Below, one piece after another: positions 20,042-49,485 of a DNA stretch of 64,000 nucleotides. A model generated the notes under the pieces. It saw only the letters and a list, made by a program, of their open reading frames with translations. It was not told the DNA's origin and searched no databases. Location: NCBI GenBank assembly GCA_016649715.1, contig JAENXC010000009.1:62001-126000 (forward strand). Reading direction: 5' to 3'. Made by a program: the position numbers and the translations under genes. This DNA comes from Flavobacteriaceae bacterium (GTDB lineage Bacteria > Bacteroidota > Bacteroidia > Flavobacteriales > Flavobacteriaceae). Each line of letters opens with the position of its first letter. Within the stretch, counting starts at the first letter, position 1.

Positions 20042-20560
20042 ATGAACTATTATAAAGCAAAAGAACAGGACACGCTACCAATGTTGACATGGGATTTGGT
20101 GGCCAGAAGTATAGAGGAATTAGTGGCGCTGGGGCTGGATGACGACACGCTTGTTGTTGCGGAAACGCGGCTACTTGATTCTGAAGACCCGGGATTTATA
20201 AGTTATGAATATGGCATTTGCCATGTTCGAATTGTTGACGGCGAATTGGGGCCCACTTTGTCGGGTGATATTACTGCGGCGCAAGCAGCACTTGGTGAGG
20301 CTGAAAATGTTGTTTTGATACGCAATACAGGAGAAAAATTTAAAAACCTCACCTTCAGTTTTGACAGTAAATCTTTTCCGCTAAACCCGGCGGCTAATTT
20401 AATCTATCAGGCCATAATTGAAACCACTCCGGCAACTACAACGATAGTCTCTTTAGAGGGTGAGTACATTCTAACATCTGGCAATATAGCGGGCTTTAAA
20501 ACCGCATTTTATGATAAGATTATCGCTATAAATAACGAAATAATAAGCCTGCCTGTGTAG
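20042..20560 (+). CDS. Last tail-region gene, unknown function
   Basis: A 172-residue protein (MNYYKAKEQDTLPMLTWDLV) with an acidic N-terminal helix, strands around SYEYGICHVRIVDGELGP and ENVVLIRNTGEKFKNLTFSF, and a helical C-terminus. No family was recognised. It starts 3 bases after the fibre-like gene and is the last gene before the structured RNA, so it closes the structural operon. A fibre chaperone or a small tip protein would fit the position, but the sequence does not show it. Confidence 0.5.
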   Translation: MNYYKAKEQDTLPMLTWDLVARSIEELVALGLDDDTLVVAETRLLDSEDPGFISYEYGICHVRIVDGELGPTLSGDITAAQAALGEAENVVLIRNTGEKFKNLTFSFDSKSFPLNPAANLIYQAIIETTPATTTIVSLEGEYILTSGNIAGFKTAFYDKIIAINNEIISLPV

Positions 20561-20585
20561 TTAAAAATCCCCCAGCTTACTAAAA

Positions 20586-20688
20586 TACTTCTCACGGCAT
20601 ATTAATAACGAACCCGAACGGGAACTGGAGGACTTAGGTCTTTCAGCCGTTCGGGCTTTGATGTTTTTAATAATTACCGTGAGAGGTA
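20586..20688 (+). ncRNA. Long structured RNA hairpin upstream of the right-end cassette
   Basis: Three coaxial stems can be drawn. The outer arms 20586-20597 and 20677-20688 pair over 12 bp with one T-G pair. The middle arms 20613-20621 (CCCGAACGG) and 20647-20655 pair perfectly over 9 bp. The inner arms 20625-20633 (CTGGAGGAC) and 20638-20646 (GTCTTTCAG) pair over 9 bp with two G-T pairs around a TTAG loop, leaving only a GAA bulge between the middle and inner stems. The wobble pairs fit an RNA made from the plus strand; the other strand would have A-C mismatches. There is no T-run, so it is not a simple terminator. It begins 25 bases after the last tail gene and ends 25 bases before the 42-residue gene. 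It may be a leader regulating the cassette or an independent small RNA. Confidence 0.65.
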
Positions 20689-20713
20689 CAAATATAAATA
20701 AATAGTAAGTAAT

Positions 20714-20842
20714 ATGAGCAATTTTAAGTACAAAGAACAGCACGCCGTTATTGTTAAATGCGGTAGTGAGGAGGAACAAAAACAGCTTTTTGAAAGGCTG
20801 AAAAAACTGGGGTTTAATGATTTAAAAGTGGTAAGTGTATGA
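20714..20842 (+). CDS. 42-residue protein leading the right-end cassette
   Basis: A short frame from ATG 20714 to TGA 20842 encodes 42 residues: MSNFKYKEQHAVIVKCGSEE, then a charged helix and FNDLKVVSV. The pattern strand-helix-strand with VIVKCGSEEEQKQLFERLKK looks like a small folded domain. The stop overlaps the ATG of the ABC ATPase gene (ATGA), so translation is coupled. Its place, directly after the structured RNA and before the acetyltransferase-type genes, recalls Com of phage Mu, which controls mom translation. It lacks Com's zinc-finger cysteines (only one Cys), so homology is not claimed. Confidence 0.62.
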   Translation: MSNFKYKEQHAVIVKCGSEEEQKQLFERLKKLGFNDLKVVSV

Positions 20843-21528
20843 TAGTTGAAGTGAGCCATAGCGGGAAAAACTTTAAAAGTTTCCGCGCTGAAAAAGTAAA
20901 GAGCCTTTTTAACGCTGAATGTGGCCACAAGTGGAGCCATACGGCAAATATACCCATTGAGGGTGAAAACTGGCAAATTGGCCTTATTGTGGGTCCGAGT
21001 GGGAGTGGTAAGACGAGTATTGGGGAGCGGCTTTGGCCGGGGGTTGAAATCCACGATCTATATCAGGGTTGGAATAACTCAAAACCGATAATTGACGACA
21101 TTGCACCAGGACAAAATATGAACTTGGCCACCGCCGCGCTTTCAGCGGTTGGGCTTGGCGATGTTCCGGCTTGGCTTAGGCCGTTTAAGGCGTTGAGCAA
21201 CGGGGAGCAATACCGGGCTGGGCTTGCTCGGCTAATTTGTGATGCCCCAGATAAAGTGGTTATTGATGAATTTACAAGTGTTGTAGATAGGCAAATAGCA
21301 CAGATTGGAGCCTCCGCATTTGCAAAGTCTTGGCGGCGCGCCAAACAAAAGCAGATTGTACTGCTGTCATGCCACTACGATATTGTGGAGTGGTTGCAAC
21401 CAGATTGGGTATATGATACCCGAACCGGCGAAGTAAAAAAAAAGTCCAAAAGCGACCCGACATCAAGCTTGATATTTGGAAGACCAACGGCACTTACTGG
21501 AAGTATTTTAAAGAGCATTATTATTTAG
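20839..21528 (+). CDS. ABC-type ATPase, N-terminal part of ABC-GNAT protein
   Basis: In its own frame this is a 229-residue soluble ABC ATPase with no membrane segments. Walker A is GPSGSGKTS (residues about 51-59), the signature is LSNGEQYRAGLARL, Walker B is DKVVIDEFTS and the switch His is in VLLSCHYDIVEWL. The last 27 residues after GEVKKK read through low-value sequence in this frame, whereas the -1 frame continues into a GNAT domain. A run of nine A (21435-21443) ending in AAG gives the heptamer A AAA AAG in the correct phase. The natural product is therefore probably an ABC-GNAT fusion of about 376 residues made by frameshift, or the gene is broken here. The ATPase may drive loading of the acetyltransferase onto DNA or RNA. 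Confidence 0.82.
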   Translation: MIVEVSHSGKNFKSFRAEKVKSLFNAECGHKWSHTANIPIEGENWQIGLIVGPSGSGKTSIGERLWPGVEIHDLYQGWNNSKPIIDDIAPGQNMNLATAALSAVGLGDVPAWLRPFKALSNGEQYRAGLARLICDAPDKVVIDEFTSVVDRQIAQIGASAFAKSWRRAKQKQIVLLSCHYDIVEWLQPDWVYDTRTGEVKKKSKSDPTSSLIFGRPTALTGSILKSIII

Positions 21529-21968
21529 ACCTTCCGCATCCTCCTGCAGCTGAATATTTTGTGGCCACGGTAAACGGTGAAATGGTGGCTCACTTGGCCG
21601 TTTGCCCCTTATTCACCGCTAAAGCCTACCGAGCCACTCGATTGGTGGTAATGCCGGAGTGGCAAGGCGCAGGGGTGGGAACAGCATTTTTAAATGAAGT
21701 TATGCAATATCATCTTGAAGGCAATGGGAGGTGTGGGCGACAGTATCATACTTTTTTCCATACAAGCCACCCACAGCTTTGCGGTTATTTGCGGAACTCA
21801 ACAAAATGGATTCAGACAAATGCTATGCTCCATGGTTCAAATAAATCCCGCTCCATGAAAAGTATGGAGAAAACCGGGAAGGGCATAAAAGGAAAGAAAA
21901 TAAGTACAGGCTATGGCGGCCATTTTAGAGCCGTGCAAGCGTTTAAATATTTAGGAAAAAGTGAATAG
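21444..21968 (+). CDS. GNAT acetyltransferase domain in the -1 frame of the ABC gene
   Basis: The frame opens downstream of a stop at 21414-21416 and gives KRPDIKLDIWKTNGTYWKYF then the GNAT core: EYFVATVNGEMVAHLAVCPL, ATRLVVMPEWQGAGVGTAFL (acetyl-CoA-binding loop QGAGVGTAFL) and a C-terminal region with HTSHPQLCGYLRNSTKW. The conserved part begins well before the first ATG of the frame (21594) and before the first TTG/GTG-type start at 21561, so independent initiation would cut the domain. Entry by -1 frameshift from the ABC ATPase is the best reading. GNAT folds occur in Mom of phage Mu, which modifies adenine in DNA; a comparable role here is inference. The stop overlaps the formyltransferase start by 8 bases. 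Confidence 0.72.
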   Translation, partial: VQKRPDIKLDIWKTNGTYWKYFKEHYYLDLPHPPAAEYFVATVNGEMVAHLAVCPLFTAKAYRATRLVVMPEWQGAGVGTAFLNEVMQYHLEGNGRCGRQYHTFFHTSHPQLCGYLRNSTKWIQTNAMLHGSNKSRSMKSMEKTGKGIKGKKISTGYGGHFRAVQAFKYLGKSE

Positions 21969-22641
21969 ATTAAGAGTTTTTATAAGTGGCCAGAAATACT
22001 TTGGCGAGGAGGTATTTGATTTGTGCAGTAAGATTGATGGAGTTGAAATTGTCGGCATTTGTGTTCCCGTTGGAGACCGGTACCTCGGCCGCAAGGCACA
22101 GTTGTACAATATCCCCATAATTCCTGCGGGTTCATTAAACGGCGATACAATGCCTTTGGGTGTTGATTTGGGCATTACCGCGCACTCGTTTGATTATATT
22201 GGTGCAAAGACACGTTATAGGCCTCGTTTGGGTTGGATTGGCTACCATCCAAGCTTATTACCTCGACACCGCGGCCGTTCGTCAATTGAATGGGCGATCA
22301 GGATGCGCGACGTGATAACTGGCGGTACTGTGTTTTGGTTGAATGCCGGGATAGACCGAGGAGATATTGCTTATCAGGATTGGTGCTTTATTGAGCCCCG
22401 CTTGTTTGCACTACCACCAAATGAGGCGGCTCGGGAGTTATGGCAGTGCGAACTACAACAAATGGGTTTAAAGTTGATTGAAACCGCCCTTAAAGATATT
22501 TTAAAAGGTGTTATAATTAAACGGCCACAAAGCGCAGATTTAAGTACATTTGAGCCAAATACAGAGGTTAAGGACATATACCGTCCCGACTTATTGATGA
22601 TTGAAGAGAAGGCCTCACCTTCCACGTCTTGGCATAGATAG
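21961..22641 (+). CDS. Formyltransferase-fold protein (Formyl_trans_N)
   Basis: A 226-residue protein starting at GTG 21961 with one formyl-transferase N-domain. It begins RLRVFISGQKYFGEEVFDL, reads KAQLYNIPIIPAGSL in the substrate part, and has the active-site segment GYHPSLLPRHRGRSSIEWAI, then GGTVFWLNAGIDRGDI with the conserved Asp. In Fmt and ArnA the catalytic triad is Asn-His-Asp (N-x-H). Here the His (HPSLLP) and Asp (GIDRGD) are present but the Asn is Gly. Related phage proteins that I recall also have GYHPSLLP, so this may define a subfamily with a changed reaction. With the ATPase and GNAT genes it forms the right-end cassette of the prophage. Confidence 0.75.
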   Translation: MNRLRVFISGQKYFGEEVFDLCSKIDGVEIVGICVPVGDRYLGRKAQLYNIPIIPAGSLNGDTMPLGVDLGITAHSFDYIGAKTRYRPRLGWIGYHPSLLPRHRGRSSIEWAIRMRDVITGGTVFWLNAGIDRGDIAYQDWCFIEPRLFALPPNEAARELWQCELQQMGLKLIETALKDILKGVIIKRPQSADLSTFEPNTEVKDIYRPDLLMIEEKASPSTSWHR

Positions 22642-22680: not shown

Positions 22681-22724
22681 AAAATGGGCATTTGGTTTTT
22701 AAAATGTGGGCATTTGGAATTTTC
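22681..22724 (+). repeat. Two 22-bp-spaced repeats at the prophage right end
   Basis: TGGGCATTTGG occurs at 22685-22695 and again at 22707-22717, exactly 22 bases apart, each followed by a T/A-rich stretch. Mu transposase end sites are tandem units of about 22 bp at the phage termini. The copies lie between the last phage gene (ends 22641) and the sorting-domain remnant of the host gene, the expected place of the right end. The exact end and target duplication cannot be set without the left end. Confidence 0.45.
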
Positions 22725-22945
22725 GATTATACTTTTATCCAAATCCTGTAAAAAACGAATTGAATTTCAATAATATTTTTTCATTTGAAAAAGTTCAAAT
22801 CTATGGAATTCAGGGCAATTTGATTTCTTCAAAAATGATTTCCGACGGACAACAAACACTATCTATAAATCTCCCTTCGGGATTGTATTTTGTGAATTTC
22901 AGCAATGATGCGCAAACCGTTACGAAGAAAATGATTGTGGAATAG
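22706..22945 (+). pseudogene. C-terminal type IX sorting-domain remnant of a secreted protein
   Basis: The frame gives about 79 residues, of which the last 70 are a type IX secretion C-terminal domain: YPNPVKNELNF, VQIYGIQGNLISSKM, INLPSGLYFVNFSNDAQTVT and KKMIVE at the end. Such domains are always attached to a large exported protein; here there is no cargo part, since an in-frame TAA lies at 22700. Prophage sequence directly precedes it. The simplest reading is that the phage inserted into a T9SS cargo gene and the rest lies beyond the left end of the prophage, outside the window. It is unlikely to be a functional gene on its own. Confidence 0.75.
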
Positions 22946-48129: not shown

Positions 48130-49485
48130 TTAGTCCACTAGAAAACCTTTTTCTTTCTTTTTTAATTTGTCAAAATATTTAGAAGTGATTAAAATTTCTG
48201 CAAGTTTTGAAGAAACGTGTTCAACAATAGGTACAGCAACTGTATTTCCTAATAAATCAAAAGCTTCGATTTCTTTAACTGGAATTTCATACCATTCTGG
48301 ATAACCGAATAAACGTAATCCCTCACGTATTGTCAATCTTCTTAAACCACCATTATCTGGGACAGCCAATCGCGAAACATCTGTAGCAACAAGCGTTGGT
48401 GCAATATCGTTCGGATCTAATATTTTATTTATTTCAAAGCTCAGTTTTCCAGTTACAATATTGTAACCTTTTGGCTTTGTTTCATCATAAACACGAAACT
48501 TTTTTTCTCCATTTTCAGTTTTCTCTCGAACTAACTTTTTAGGATGCTCAAATCTTAAATATCCTTTTATAACCAAATCATCCAATAATTCTTTAAGCTT
48601 ATCATTTTTCTGGAAAGTTGAGATTTGCTTTAAAGTCAATGTCATTCCATCCATCCAGTCAATACCAATTTTTTTAGCCCAATGTTTTTTTCGTCTTTCC
48701 TTAAAAAGTTTATTCAGCAGAATTATTTGCTCATCTGAAACTTCCCCTTTAATTCCAATATCCCAACTATGGATATTGTTATCTCCTCCTCTTTTATCTT
48801 TGATGGACTTTCCATACAAATCTTCCATTTCAAAATGACGAAAAAGCTTTTCTGTAAAGTCAGATTTAATTGTTTCCAAACCGTTTTCTAAAATAGTTTT
48901 TAGAGGTTTAAATTCTTTGTTAGAAAATGTAAGATTTGGTTTTTCATTTTTCGCTCCAACTATAAAAATTCTTTTTCGAGATTGTGGTAAGCCAAATTCA
49001 ATAGAATCTAAAACTTTCCAAGAAACCTTGTAACCTAATTCATTTTTAAGCTTATATAAAATAGTAGACAAAGTCCTTCCTATTTTGTCTCCCTTATTCT
49101 CCAAATCGTGCTTAACAAGTCCCTCGACATTTTCCAATATGAAACCATAAGGACTTTTATTTCTTATAATCCTTTCAATTTCAAAAAACAATGTTCCTCT
49201 TGTATCAGAAAATCCGTGACGATTTCCTGCTGCACTAAATGATTGGCATGGAAAACCTCCTAATAAAAAATCAAAGTCTGGAATTTGTTCATTCTCAACT
49301 TGAAAAATATCTCCTACAAAATATCCGTGACTGAAATTCTTTTCTAAAGTTTCAATCGCATAAGACTTAATCTCAGAAGTCATTACACATTCAGTTTCAA
49401 AACCTAATTCTCTGAACGAATTTTCAAAACCTAATCTTATTCCTCCAAGTCCAGCAAATAAGTCTATAAATTTAACTTTTGTCAT
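48130..49485 (-). CDS. DNA (cytosine-5-)-methyltransferase
   Basis: A 451-residue modification enzyme with ordered C5-MTase motifs: I FIDLFAGLGGIRLGFE, IV LLGGFPCQSFSAAGNRHGF (catalytic Cys), VI FILENVEGLVKHD, VIII FGLPQSRKRIFIVGA and X FDLLGNTVAVPIVEHV. The region between VIII and X, about 230 residues with KHWAKKIGIDWMDGMTLTL and a basic segment, is the target-recognition domain. It is large and suggests a specificity I cannot name. The gene protects host DNA from the convergent endonuclease. Two bases upstream lies the DUF6471 gene, likely co-transcribed. Confidence 0.9.
   Translation of the reverse strand: MTKVKFIDLFAGLGGIRLGFENSFRELGFETECVMTSEIKSYAIETLEKNFSHGYFVGDIFQVENEQIPDFDFLLGGFPCQSFSAAGNRHGFSDTRGTLFFEIERIIRNKSPYGFILENVEGLVKHDLENKGDKIGRTLSTILYKLKNELGYKVSWKVLDSIEFGLPQSRKRIFIVGAKNEKPNLTFSNKEFKPLKTILENGLETIKSDFTEKLFRHFEMEDLYGKSIKDKRGGDNNIHSWDIGIKGEVSDEQIILLNKLFKERRKKHWAKKIGIDWMDGMTLTLKQISTFQKNDKLKELLDDLVIKGYLRFEHPKKLVREKTENGEKKFRVYDETKPKGYNIVTGKLSFEINKILDPNDIAPTLVATDVSRLAVPDNGGLRRLTIREGLRLFGYPEWYEIPVKEIEAFDLLGNTVAVPIVEHVSSKLAEILITSKYFDKLKKKEKGFLVD

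Follow-up and report, generated by a model that had tools for sequence, protein, structure and literature searches.

A putative DNA-modification cassette with an ABC-GNAT frameshift site at the right end of a Mu-like prophage

What is the function of the gene cassette that closes a Mu-like prophage of a Flavobacteriaceae bacterium? The cassette lies in a 64,000-nucleotide stretch of DNA, hereafter the window (assembly GCA_016649715.1, contig JAENXC010000009.1, positions 62,001 to 126,000 of the forward strand), and encodes a protein of 42 amino acids (aa), an ABC ATPase, a GNAT domain and a formyltransferase-fold protein, headed by a predicted hairpin RNA. We propose that it is a putative DNA-modification module of the phage, working by the mechanism set out below, and we give this reading, which comes from sequence comparison, a probability of roughly 0.72. 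A first-pass annotation had suggested a possible DNA-modification system in the position that com-mom holds in phage Mu. That suggestion is now supported by a sibling phage in which Mom takes the place of the cassette, by Com genes beside related cassettes, and by the genes found at the other places that the hairpin RNA marks. The genes and sites of the cassette, in window positions, are:

20714 to 20842, plus strand: 42-aa protein (phrog_28816), predicted to be the stand-alone C-terminal tail of a ParB-like protein
20839 to 21528, plus strand: ABC ATPase, 229 aa in frame 0, with intact motifs that we take to be Walker A, the signature (LSNGEQ), Walker B and the H-loop
21435 to 21444, plus strand: A9-G slippery site, with A9 at 21435-21443; in the frame of ABC, 21438-21444 reads as the heptamer A AAA AAG
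21444 to 21968, plus strand: GNAT domain in the -1 frame, with HYYL and QGxGxG motifs (Pfam Acetyltransf_7, E = 2e-7)
21961 to 22641, plus strand: formyltransferase-fold protein, 226 aa (Formyl_trans_N, 2e-15), with the active-site His and Asp kept and Asn replaced by Gly

Most parts of the earlier description of this locus were borne out by our searches: the ATGA coupling (a 4-bp overlap between the 42-aa and ABC open reading frames, ORFs), the GNAT domain, the one-domain formyltransferase-fold ORF, which overlaps GNAT by 8 bp, and a hairpin, in that 20560-20720 folds with a z-score of -6.55 and none of 200 shuffles folds equally well. The claim that ABC is joined to GNAT stands in part. The phrog_11143 profile spans both (ABC at profile positions 5-198, GNAT at 198-352), but the two lie in different frames (1 and 3) and form no single ORF.

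The right-end slot and its occupants

In two Porphyromonas phages, phage008a and phage013a, a stretch of 9834 bp that runs up to and includes the last tail gene is 93.8% identical, and the final 93 bp are 80.6% identical. In the interval, one carries the cassette, with ABC and GNAT fused, and the other a Mom protein (PF25680, 1e-55). Both phages encode MuA- and MuB-like genes.

For wider comparison we used 97 loci with ABC matches at E up to 1e-80 and GNAT matches at E up to 1e-35, counting once those with identical 501 bases from the ABC start (L numbers are our handles for loci; merged copies are, for example, L152 = L001, L153 = L002 and L120 = L078). Excluded were loci with GNAT cut off or not found (L009, L019, L021, L205, L222), one with a frame other than 0 or -1 and GNAT at 5e-21 (L194), those with ABC cut or broken (L050, L070, L071, L072), and a distant branch (L025 to L049, L051 to L069, L073, L081 to L085); one relatives search retained the best 80 of 228. 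Com is encoded upstream of the tail gene, that of the 42-aa protein, in 16 of the 97 loci (home-made profile, E <0.001). It occurs in 12 genomes, whose titles all place them in Pseudomonadota, in three viral contigs and in Pseudomonas phage Komp_PAO1_1, whose record leaves the gene unannotated (L079:3683-3928). Pfam PF10122 confirms Com in 5/5 related loci queried, one of which (L021) is outside the 97.

In 397 genomes of the window's family, the RNA model R1 described below matches 15 places in 14 genomes, the window and 14 others. Within 70 bp, all 14 other places hold either a DNA methyltransferase (10 places; D12, C5 or N6_N4, with a remnant in L331) or a thymidylate-synthase-like gene alone (4 places). 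Such genes can also stand next to the cassette itself: a C5 methyltransferase in L007, L011, L012, L013, L167 and L188, a thymidylate-synthase-like gene in L184 and a D12 gene in L200. Elsewhere, fF4 and fF4-like Bacteroidetes prophages are Mu-like and mostly carry a DNA-modification gene among their last ORFs, according to the part of PMC7761591 available to us. Together, the Mom swap, Com, the RNA-marked methyltransferases, the methyltransferases beside the cassette and the fF4 prophages suggest that this is a DNA-modification slot.

The thymidylate-synthase-like proteins of the slot are short (about 210-240 aa; L330, L332, L334, L338, L339, L328, L184). Their genes may encode nucleotide-modifying enzymes and are found by themselves, ahead of a D12 methyltransferase or alongside the cassette.

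The RNA and its candidate promoter lie at the head of the slot:

20563 to 20688, minus strand: predicted small RNA with a long hairpin (z-score -5.25), whose apical GUCCUCC can pair with a G-rich 3' tail ahead of a U-run
20689 to 20696, minus strand: Bacteroidota-type -7 box TATATTTG, with TTG 22 nt upstream at 20719-20721

Bacteroidota promoters have the consensus TTG-N19-TAnnTTTG. A TAnnTTTG box stands 0-4 nt ahead of the model start on the minus strand in 32/33 loci, and this box is outside model R1. Eight of the loci and the apical/tail pairs went into building R1, which holds just 10 such pairs, as MAFFT left the arms unaligned. These 33 are the minus-strand matches kept when R1 was applied to 64 sources, after removal of two copies (L152, L153) and of five weaker matches (E 0.09 and above). 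In six loci tested, the minus-strand stem has z-scores of -5.3 to -7.9, and a U-rich run follows it in most. The 3' tail forms 9-15 bp with the apical C-rich stretch, and own apical/tail pairs exceed exchanged pairs (mean 10.2 vs 8.2, 0/301 permutations), with the limit that pairing in loci found by R1 is partly circular and that a complementary stretch of 8 is common by exchange. The plus strand reaches the lower folding energy in 8/8, which counts against a minus-strand RNA. We think that the predicted RNA is probably made from the minus strand. Rfam gives no matches in the window at gathering thresholds. In the Mom-bearing Porphyromonas phage, R1 has a weak match at the same place (E 0.004) with no -7 box.

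The prophage occupies C61:47053-84731 (37,679 bp), where C61 is the contig of genome G000 from which the window, C61 62001-126000, is drawn. The placement of the cassette at its right end, as first annotated, is confirmed by both prophage borders. At the left end are a repressor, a transposase (phrog_310, 1e-35) and a MuB-like ATPase, and the prophage interrupts a host gene for a secreted protein, with CTTTTA flanking both sides; this gene is uninterrupted in the relatives G001, G007 and G010. The portal and terminase genes lie inside the window. The cassette is the final content of the prophage, the gap between the formyltransferase stop at 22641 and the phage end at 22731 being 90 bp:

22686 to 22731, plus strand: phage right end, with two GGGCATTTGG repeats (22686-22695, 22708-22717) and the terminal CGATTATA
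22732 to 22737, plus strand: target-site duplication CTTTTA, 6 bp as seen (5 or 6)

Outside the prophage, the window also encodes a C5 cytosine DNA methyltransferase (48202-49473, minus strand; PF00145, 3e-75).

ABC-GNAT, its frameshift site and its partner proteins

ABC (frame 1) and GNAT (frame 3, open to 21968) are joinable only through a -1 frameshift at 21438-21444. Among the 97 loci, ABC and GNAT are fused in frame in 58, stand in a -1 relation in 38 and have another relation in one (L164). An A6-A11 run is present at the site in 37 of the 38 -1 loci, the exception being Moraxella L228. In each of these 37, an in-frame A AAA AAN heptamer lies at the site, and frame 0 runs into a stop 27-30 codons further on. 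Codons 195-202 contain 67 heptamers, against 5 in the 8029 codons outside this stretch; the 58 fused loci have 2 at the site and 2 elsewhere. A conserved in-frame slippery heptamer with a -1 relation, as in these 37/38 loci, is what characterizes a programmed -1 frameshift. Slippage would yield two predicted products, ABC alone and ABC-GNAT.

In a tree of 102 ABC domains, in which five distant loci, all fused, are included and from which L053, L069 and L082 are left out, three state changes are required. One clade of 39 rows (support 98/96), with named members from Bacteroidota, lies inside fused relatives and comprises the 37 -1 loci together with L168 and L164. L168 is the sole fused locus with an A run of at least 6 at the site; its A10 puts ABC-GNAT in one frame (L168:5001-6119), and it is nested in the -1 clade. 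In L164, A8 gives another frame, and no formyltransferase gene was found. Because the tree needs three changes and the clade of 39 is nested among fused relatives, the simplest reading is one gain of the frameshift in the Bacteroidota clade, with a reversal in L168 and a separate event in L228. The presence of just A6 at the slip site of L007 and L167 favours ribosomal over transcriptional slipping.

The -1 relation also occurs in L053, L069 and L082 of the distant branch and in the excluded loci L070 and L009, the latter with the heptamer. In L053 and in L082 (Lactococcus phage P335 orf24/orf25), GNAT in the -1 frame goes with an A-rich heptamer near codons 197-205. We rejected a second candidate slippery site, T TTA AAG near codon 223, since alignment with fused relatives places the GNAT N-terminus in the -1 frame from codon 200 onward. 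The phrog_11143 profile matches 291/295 genomes of relatives and 14/14 control genomes as well; outside G000 and G221 the best E is 3e-9, and we read matches at 3e-9 or weaker as probable generic ABC or GNAT similarity.

The GNAT domain conserves the coenzyme A (CoA) loop QGxGxG and an HHYL-type motif. Its structure model, built from 39 sequences (mean predicted local distance difference test score, pLDDT, 86.6), matches 182 solved chains with E ≤0.001, with acetyltransferases among the matches listed, and among viral folds the ABC-GNAT of Leptospira phage LE4 ranks first (3e-9). Fold and loop (Q/R-x-x-G-x-G/A) thus place it in the GNAT superfamily. By sequence, its solved relatives are generic (best E 0.0013). 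Pfam at E up to 1 returns GNAT models only and no PF25680, the Mom family; against a profile of 16 Mom sequences, two of three weak alignments set HHYL against KHYS. Because of the QGxGxG loop, a fold like that of RimI and SpeG and a non-significant Mom profile match, GNAT, if it acts on DNA at all, would do so as an acyl-CoA GNAT of the ordinary kind, directed by its partners, and not as a Mom. Among the fold matches is A0A8S5PZ92, a 214-aa phage protein named aspartate 1-decarboxylase. This name may be wrong, or both activities may be linked, as in the Jace locus described below.

The 42-aa protein corresponds to part of a larger protein elsewhere. In distant loci, the gene ahead of ABC is often ParB-like, with its last ~35 residues resembling the 42-aa protein; in L042 to L068, mostly other genes precede ABC. 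The ParB-like ORF of L015 matches phrog_28816 on residues 139-178 (5e-9) and a ParB family on residues 6-126, and gp1 of a Gordonia phage does so on residues 164-199 (3e-6) and 9-157, respectively. Pfam ParB_N gives a single weak match, in L022 (0.003), and the prophage encodes no ParB domain of phrog_620 type. From this homology to the C-terminus of ParB-like proteins, we take the 42-aa protein to be the tail of a ParB-like protein that has split off. A tail ORF precedes ABC in 95/97 loci, is at least 150 aa in 10 and overlaps ABC through ATGA in 78 of the 95.

In Porphyromonas gingivalis phage008a, the tail gene (L120:32675-32803), annotated 'acr candidate', is a ParB tail. Microbacterium phage Antuna has a ParB-like gene that overlaps a Mom-like gene (gp48-gp49, L121:2469-3621), with no detectable tail of the 42-aa type. 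ParB-like proteins can accompany Mom as well.

The closest solved relatives of the formyltransferase-fold protein are the hydrolase domains of 10-formyltetrahydrofolate (10-formyl-THF) dehydrogenase (1s3i, 2bw0; E 1e-18), ahead of methionyl-tRNA (Met-tRNA) formyltransferase. Formyltransferases have a catalytic triad of Asn, His and Asp. In an alignment of 26 rows, His and Asp never vary, and Asn is replaced by Gly, Ala or Ile. A more distant type of the protein, with E mostly between 1e-35 and 1e-44 where most other loci reach 1e-76 or better, is found in L171-L177, L179-L186, L200, L203, L208, L209, L211-L213, L218 and L078, and in L078 the first half is short. In several Gordonia phages (L080 gp3) the gene is annotated 'tRNA-methyltransferase'.

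Proposed mechanism and rival readings

The cassette as a DNA-modification module would work as follows. A dimer of the ABC ATPase, whose motifs are intact, would grip DNA in an ATP-driven manner, with the 42-aa ParB tail docking on ABC, as the frequent ATGA overlap of their genes suggests. GNAT domains would move an acyl group from CoA to the exocyclic amine of a DNA base. The conserved slip site suggests that only part of the ABC subunits would carry the acyltransferase. The formyltransferase would make or complete the acyl group, for which formyl-CoA and a formylated acyl are candidates; 10-formyl-THF dehydrogenase hands formyl to a pantetheine thiol, and we propose formyl-CoA because the cassette protein resembles the domain that does so. 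The hairpin RNA, probably from the opposite strand, would probably silence the module in the lysogen. By analogy with Mom, the marked DNA would resist host nucleases after infection.

We name formyl as the acyl group only tentatively. The most specific form of the proposal is putative DNA formylation, in which formyl comes from 10-formyl-THF (through formyl-CoA or onto a base-linked amine), the ABC-GNAT is dosed by the ribosomal -1 slip, and a new RNA family both marks and controls the slot; we consider it possible while leaning against it. In Rhodococcus phage Jace, gp85-gp88 (L081:3420-6185) are consecutive genes for a ParB-like protein, ABC-GNAT, PanD (PF02261, 2e-33) and a CoA-transferase III-like protein (PF02515, 2e-8). 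There, PanD and the CoA-transferase could supply a CoA donor of beta-alanyl type.

A number of observations weigh against the cassette being a DNA-modification module of this kind. The nearest solved folds of GNAT among the matches listed are RimI, SpeG and other protein or polyamine N-acetyltransferases (template modelling score 0.5-0.6), no protein named Mom is among the best 50 of 636 viral fold matches, and Mom homology, tried by hhalign with 4 and then 16 Mom sequences, was rejected at a probability below 1%. The Asn of the classical triad is missing from the formyltransferase. This gene follows ABC-GNAT in 94/97 loci, a count from a non-random sample, as the loci were picked by similarity; of the three loci without it, L018 is on a contig that stops shortly past GNAT. 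The slip site has no signal of a stimulatory downstream stem (mean z-score -0.02 over 37 loci). The neighbourhood with PanD and CoA-transferase is that of Jace alone (two records). The home-made profile finds no Com in the window. In Komp_PAO1_1, one of the Com carriers, the cassette is interior to a linear record and does not end it. The Mu-like context and the link to phage ends that the first-pass annotation called for were established in the window and the Porphyromonas phages; more distant members adjoin ParB and terminase genes.

Some of these points would suit a cassette that modifies a host protein or RNA (RNA polymerase, ribosome or tRNA) late in infection, with the slot serving as a general accessory place. 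Phage GNATs can acetylate host proteins, as stated in the available part of PMC7824862, the formyltransferase fold is common to Met-tRNA formyltransferase, and the closeness of the GNAT model to RimI and SpeG slightly raised the weight that we give to a protein or RNA target. Set against these are the other slot occupants, 14/14 of which are DNA methyltransferases or thymidylate-synthase-like, the Mom of the sibling phage and the ParB-like partners in other phages, and we judge this explanation unlikely. The same modification-type occupants speak against a role in superinfection defence, by restriction or exclusion, in place of self-marking, which we hold to be a little less probable again. 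In its favour, PADLOC matches the ABC part to mad3 (8e-9), a weak match that with AbiLi is the only one there and that we regard as generic, and some records name the ParB-like partners as nuclease domain proteins; yet the cassette ORFs match no nuclease model from Pfam, PADLOC finds nothing in GNAT or the formyltransferase, and the phrog_620-type ParB domain is absent from the prophage.

That the break between ABC and GNAT is a decay mutation and the cassette dead is highly improbable. In favour of decay are the run-length variants L168 (A10, in frame) and L164 (A8, no formyltransferase found), but 37/39 loci of one clade keep the -1 relation together with an A6-A11 run, and the remaining reading frames of the cassette are open. 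We retain the putative DNA-modification module as the preferred reading. With it, the ABC-GNAT family, whose modification is called uncharacterised in PMC7824862 as far as available to us, gains partners in the ParB tail, the formyltransferase and Com, a place exchangeable with Mom and a predicted two-form frameshift. Carriers of the cassette on cultured hosts include Gordonia phages such as BiggityBass and Pseudomonas phage Komp_PAO1_1, and the hairpin RNA offers a handle for collecting the DNA-modification genes of Bacteroidota Mu-like phages.

Comparison with known systems

The family-level idea that ABC-GNAT acylates DNA is already in print: in its available part, PMC7824862 reports an earlier prediction (its ref. 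136, by Iyer and colleagues, 2013) of an uncharacterised acyl modification of a DNA base, made by a GNAT linked to an ABC ATPase. We found nothing on ABC-GNAT in the available parts of PMC5512222 and PMC11318856, and recognised no paper on the frameshift, ParB tail, formyltransferase partner, Mom swap or RNA, in a literature search that aimed few queries at the frameshift and formyl-CoA and mostly left subscription journals uncovered.

The cassette has the homologous joined ABC and GNAT of the published family, in that phrog_11143 covers both and the family's example, Tenacibaculum phage pT24, has the same architecture and is matched by the ABC part (tblastn, 44% identity over 69% of the query, E 2e-32). 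It differs in being split by a -1 frameshift and in adding a formyltransferase and a ParB-tail partner, which the part of PMC7824862 seen does not mention. The DNA-modification gene of the fF4 and fF4-like prophages is a methylase, and the cassette is not named in the accessible part of PMC7761591.

The hydrolase domain of 10-formyl-THF dehydrogenase likewise lacks Asn two residues ahead of His, having Ile there, whereas the formyltransferase of the cassette is a phage gene with no aldehyde dehydrogenase or carrier domain. E. coli dnaX is an example of programmed -1 frameshifting and has the same heptamer, A AAA AAG, in frame; unlike dnaX, the cassette lacks a downstream stem signal, and slipping would decide whether its ATPase product carries an acyltransferase. 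Like com-mom of Mu, the cassette follows the tail genes and occupies the right end of a transposable phage. Mom has a GNAT fold (PMC7824862, available part), as does the cassette's acyltransferase domain, and Mom and Com recur in the sibling phage and the Com-bearing loci, respectively. In contrast to com-mom, the cassette has a canonical GNAT with QGxGxG, to which an ABC ATPase, a ParB tail and a formyltransferase are added.

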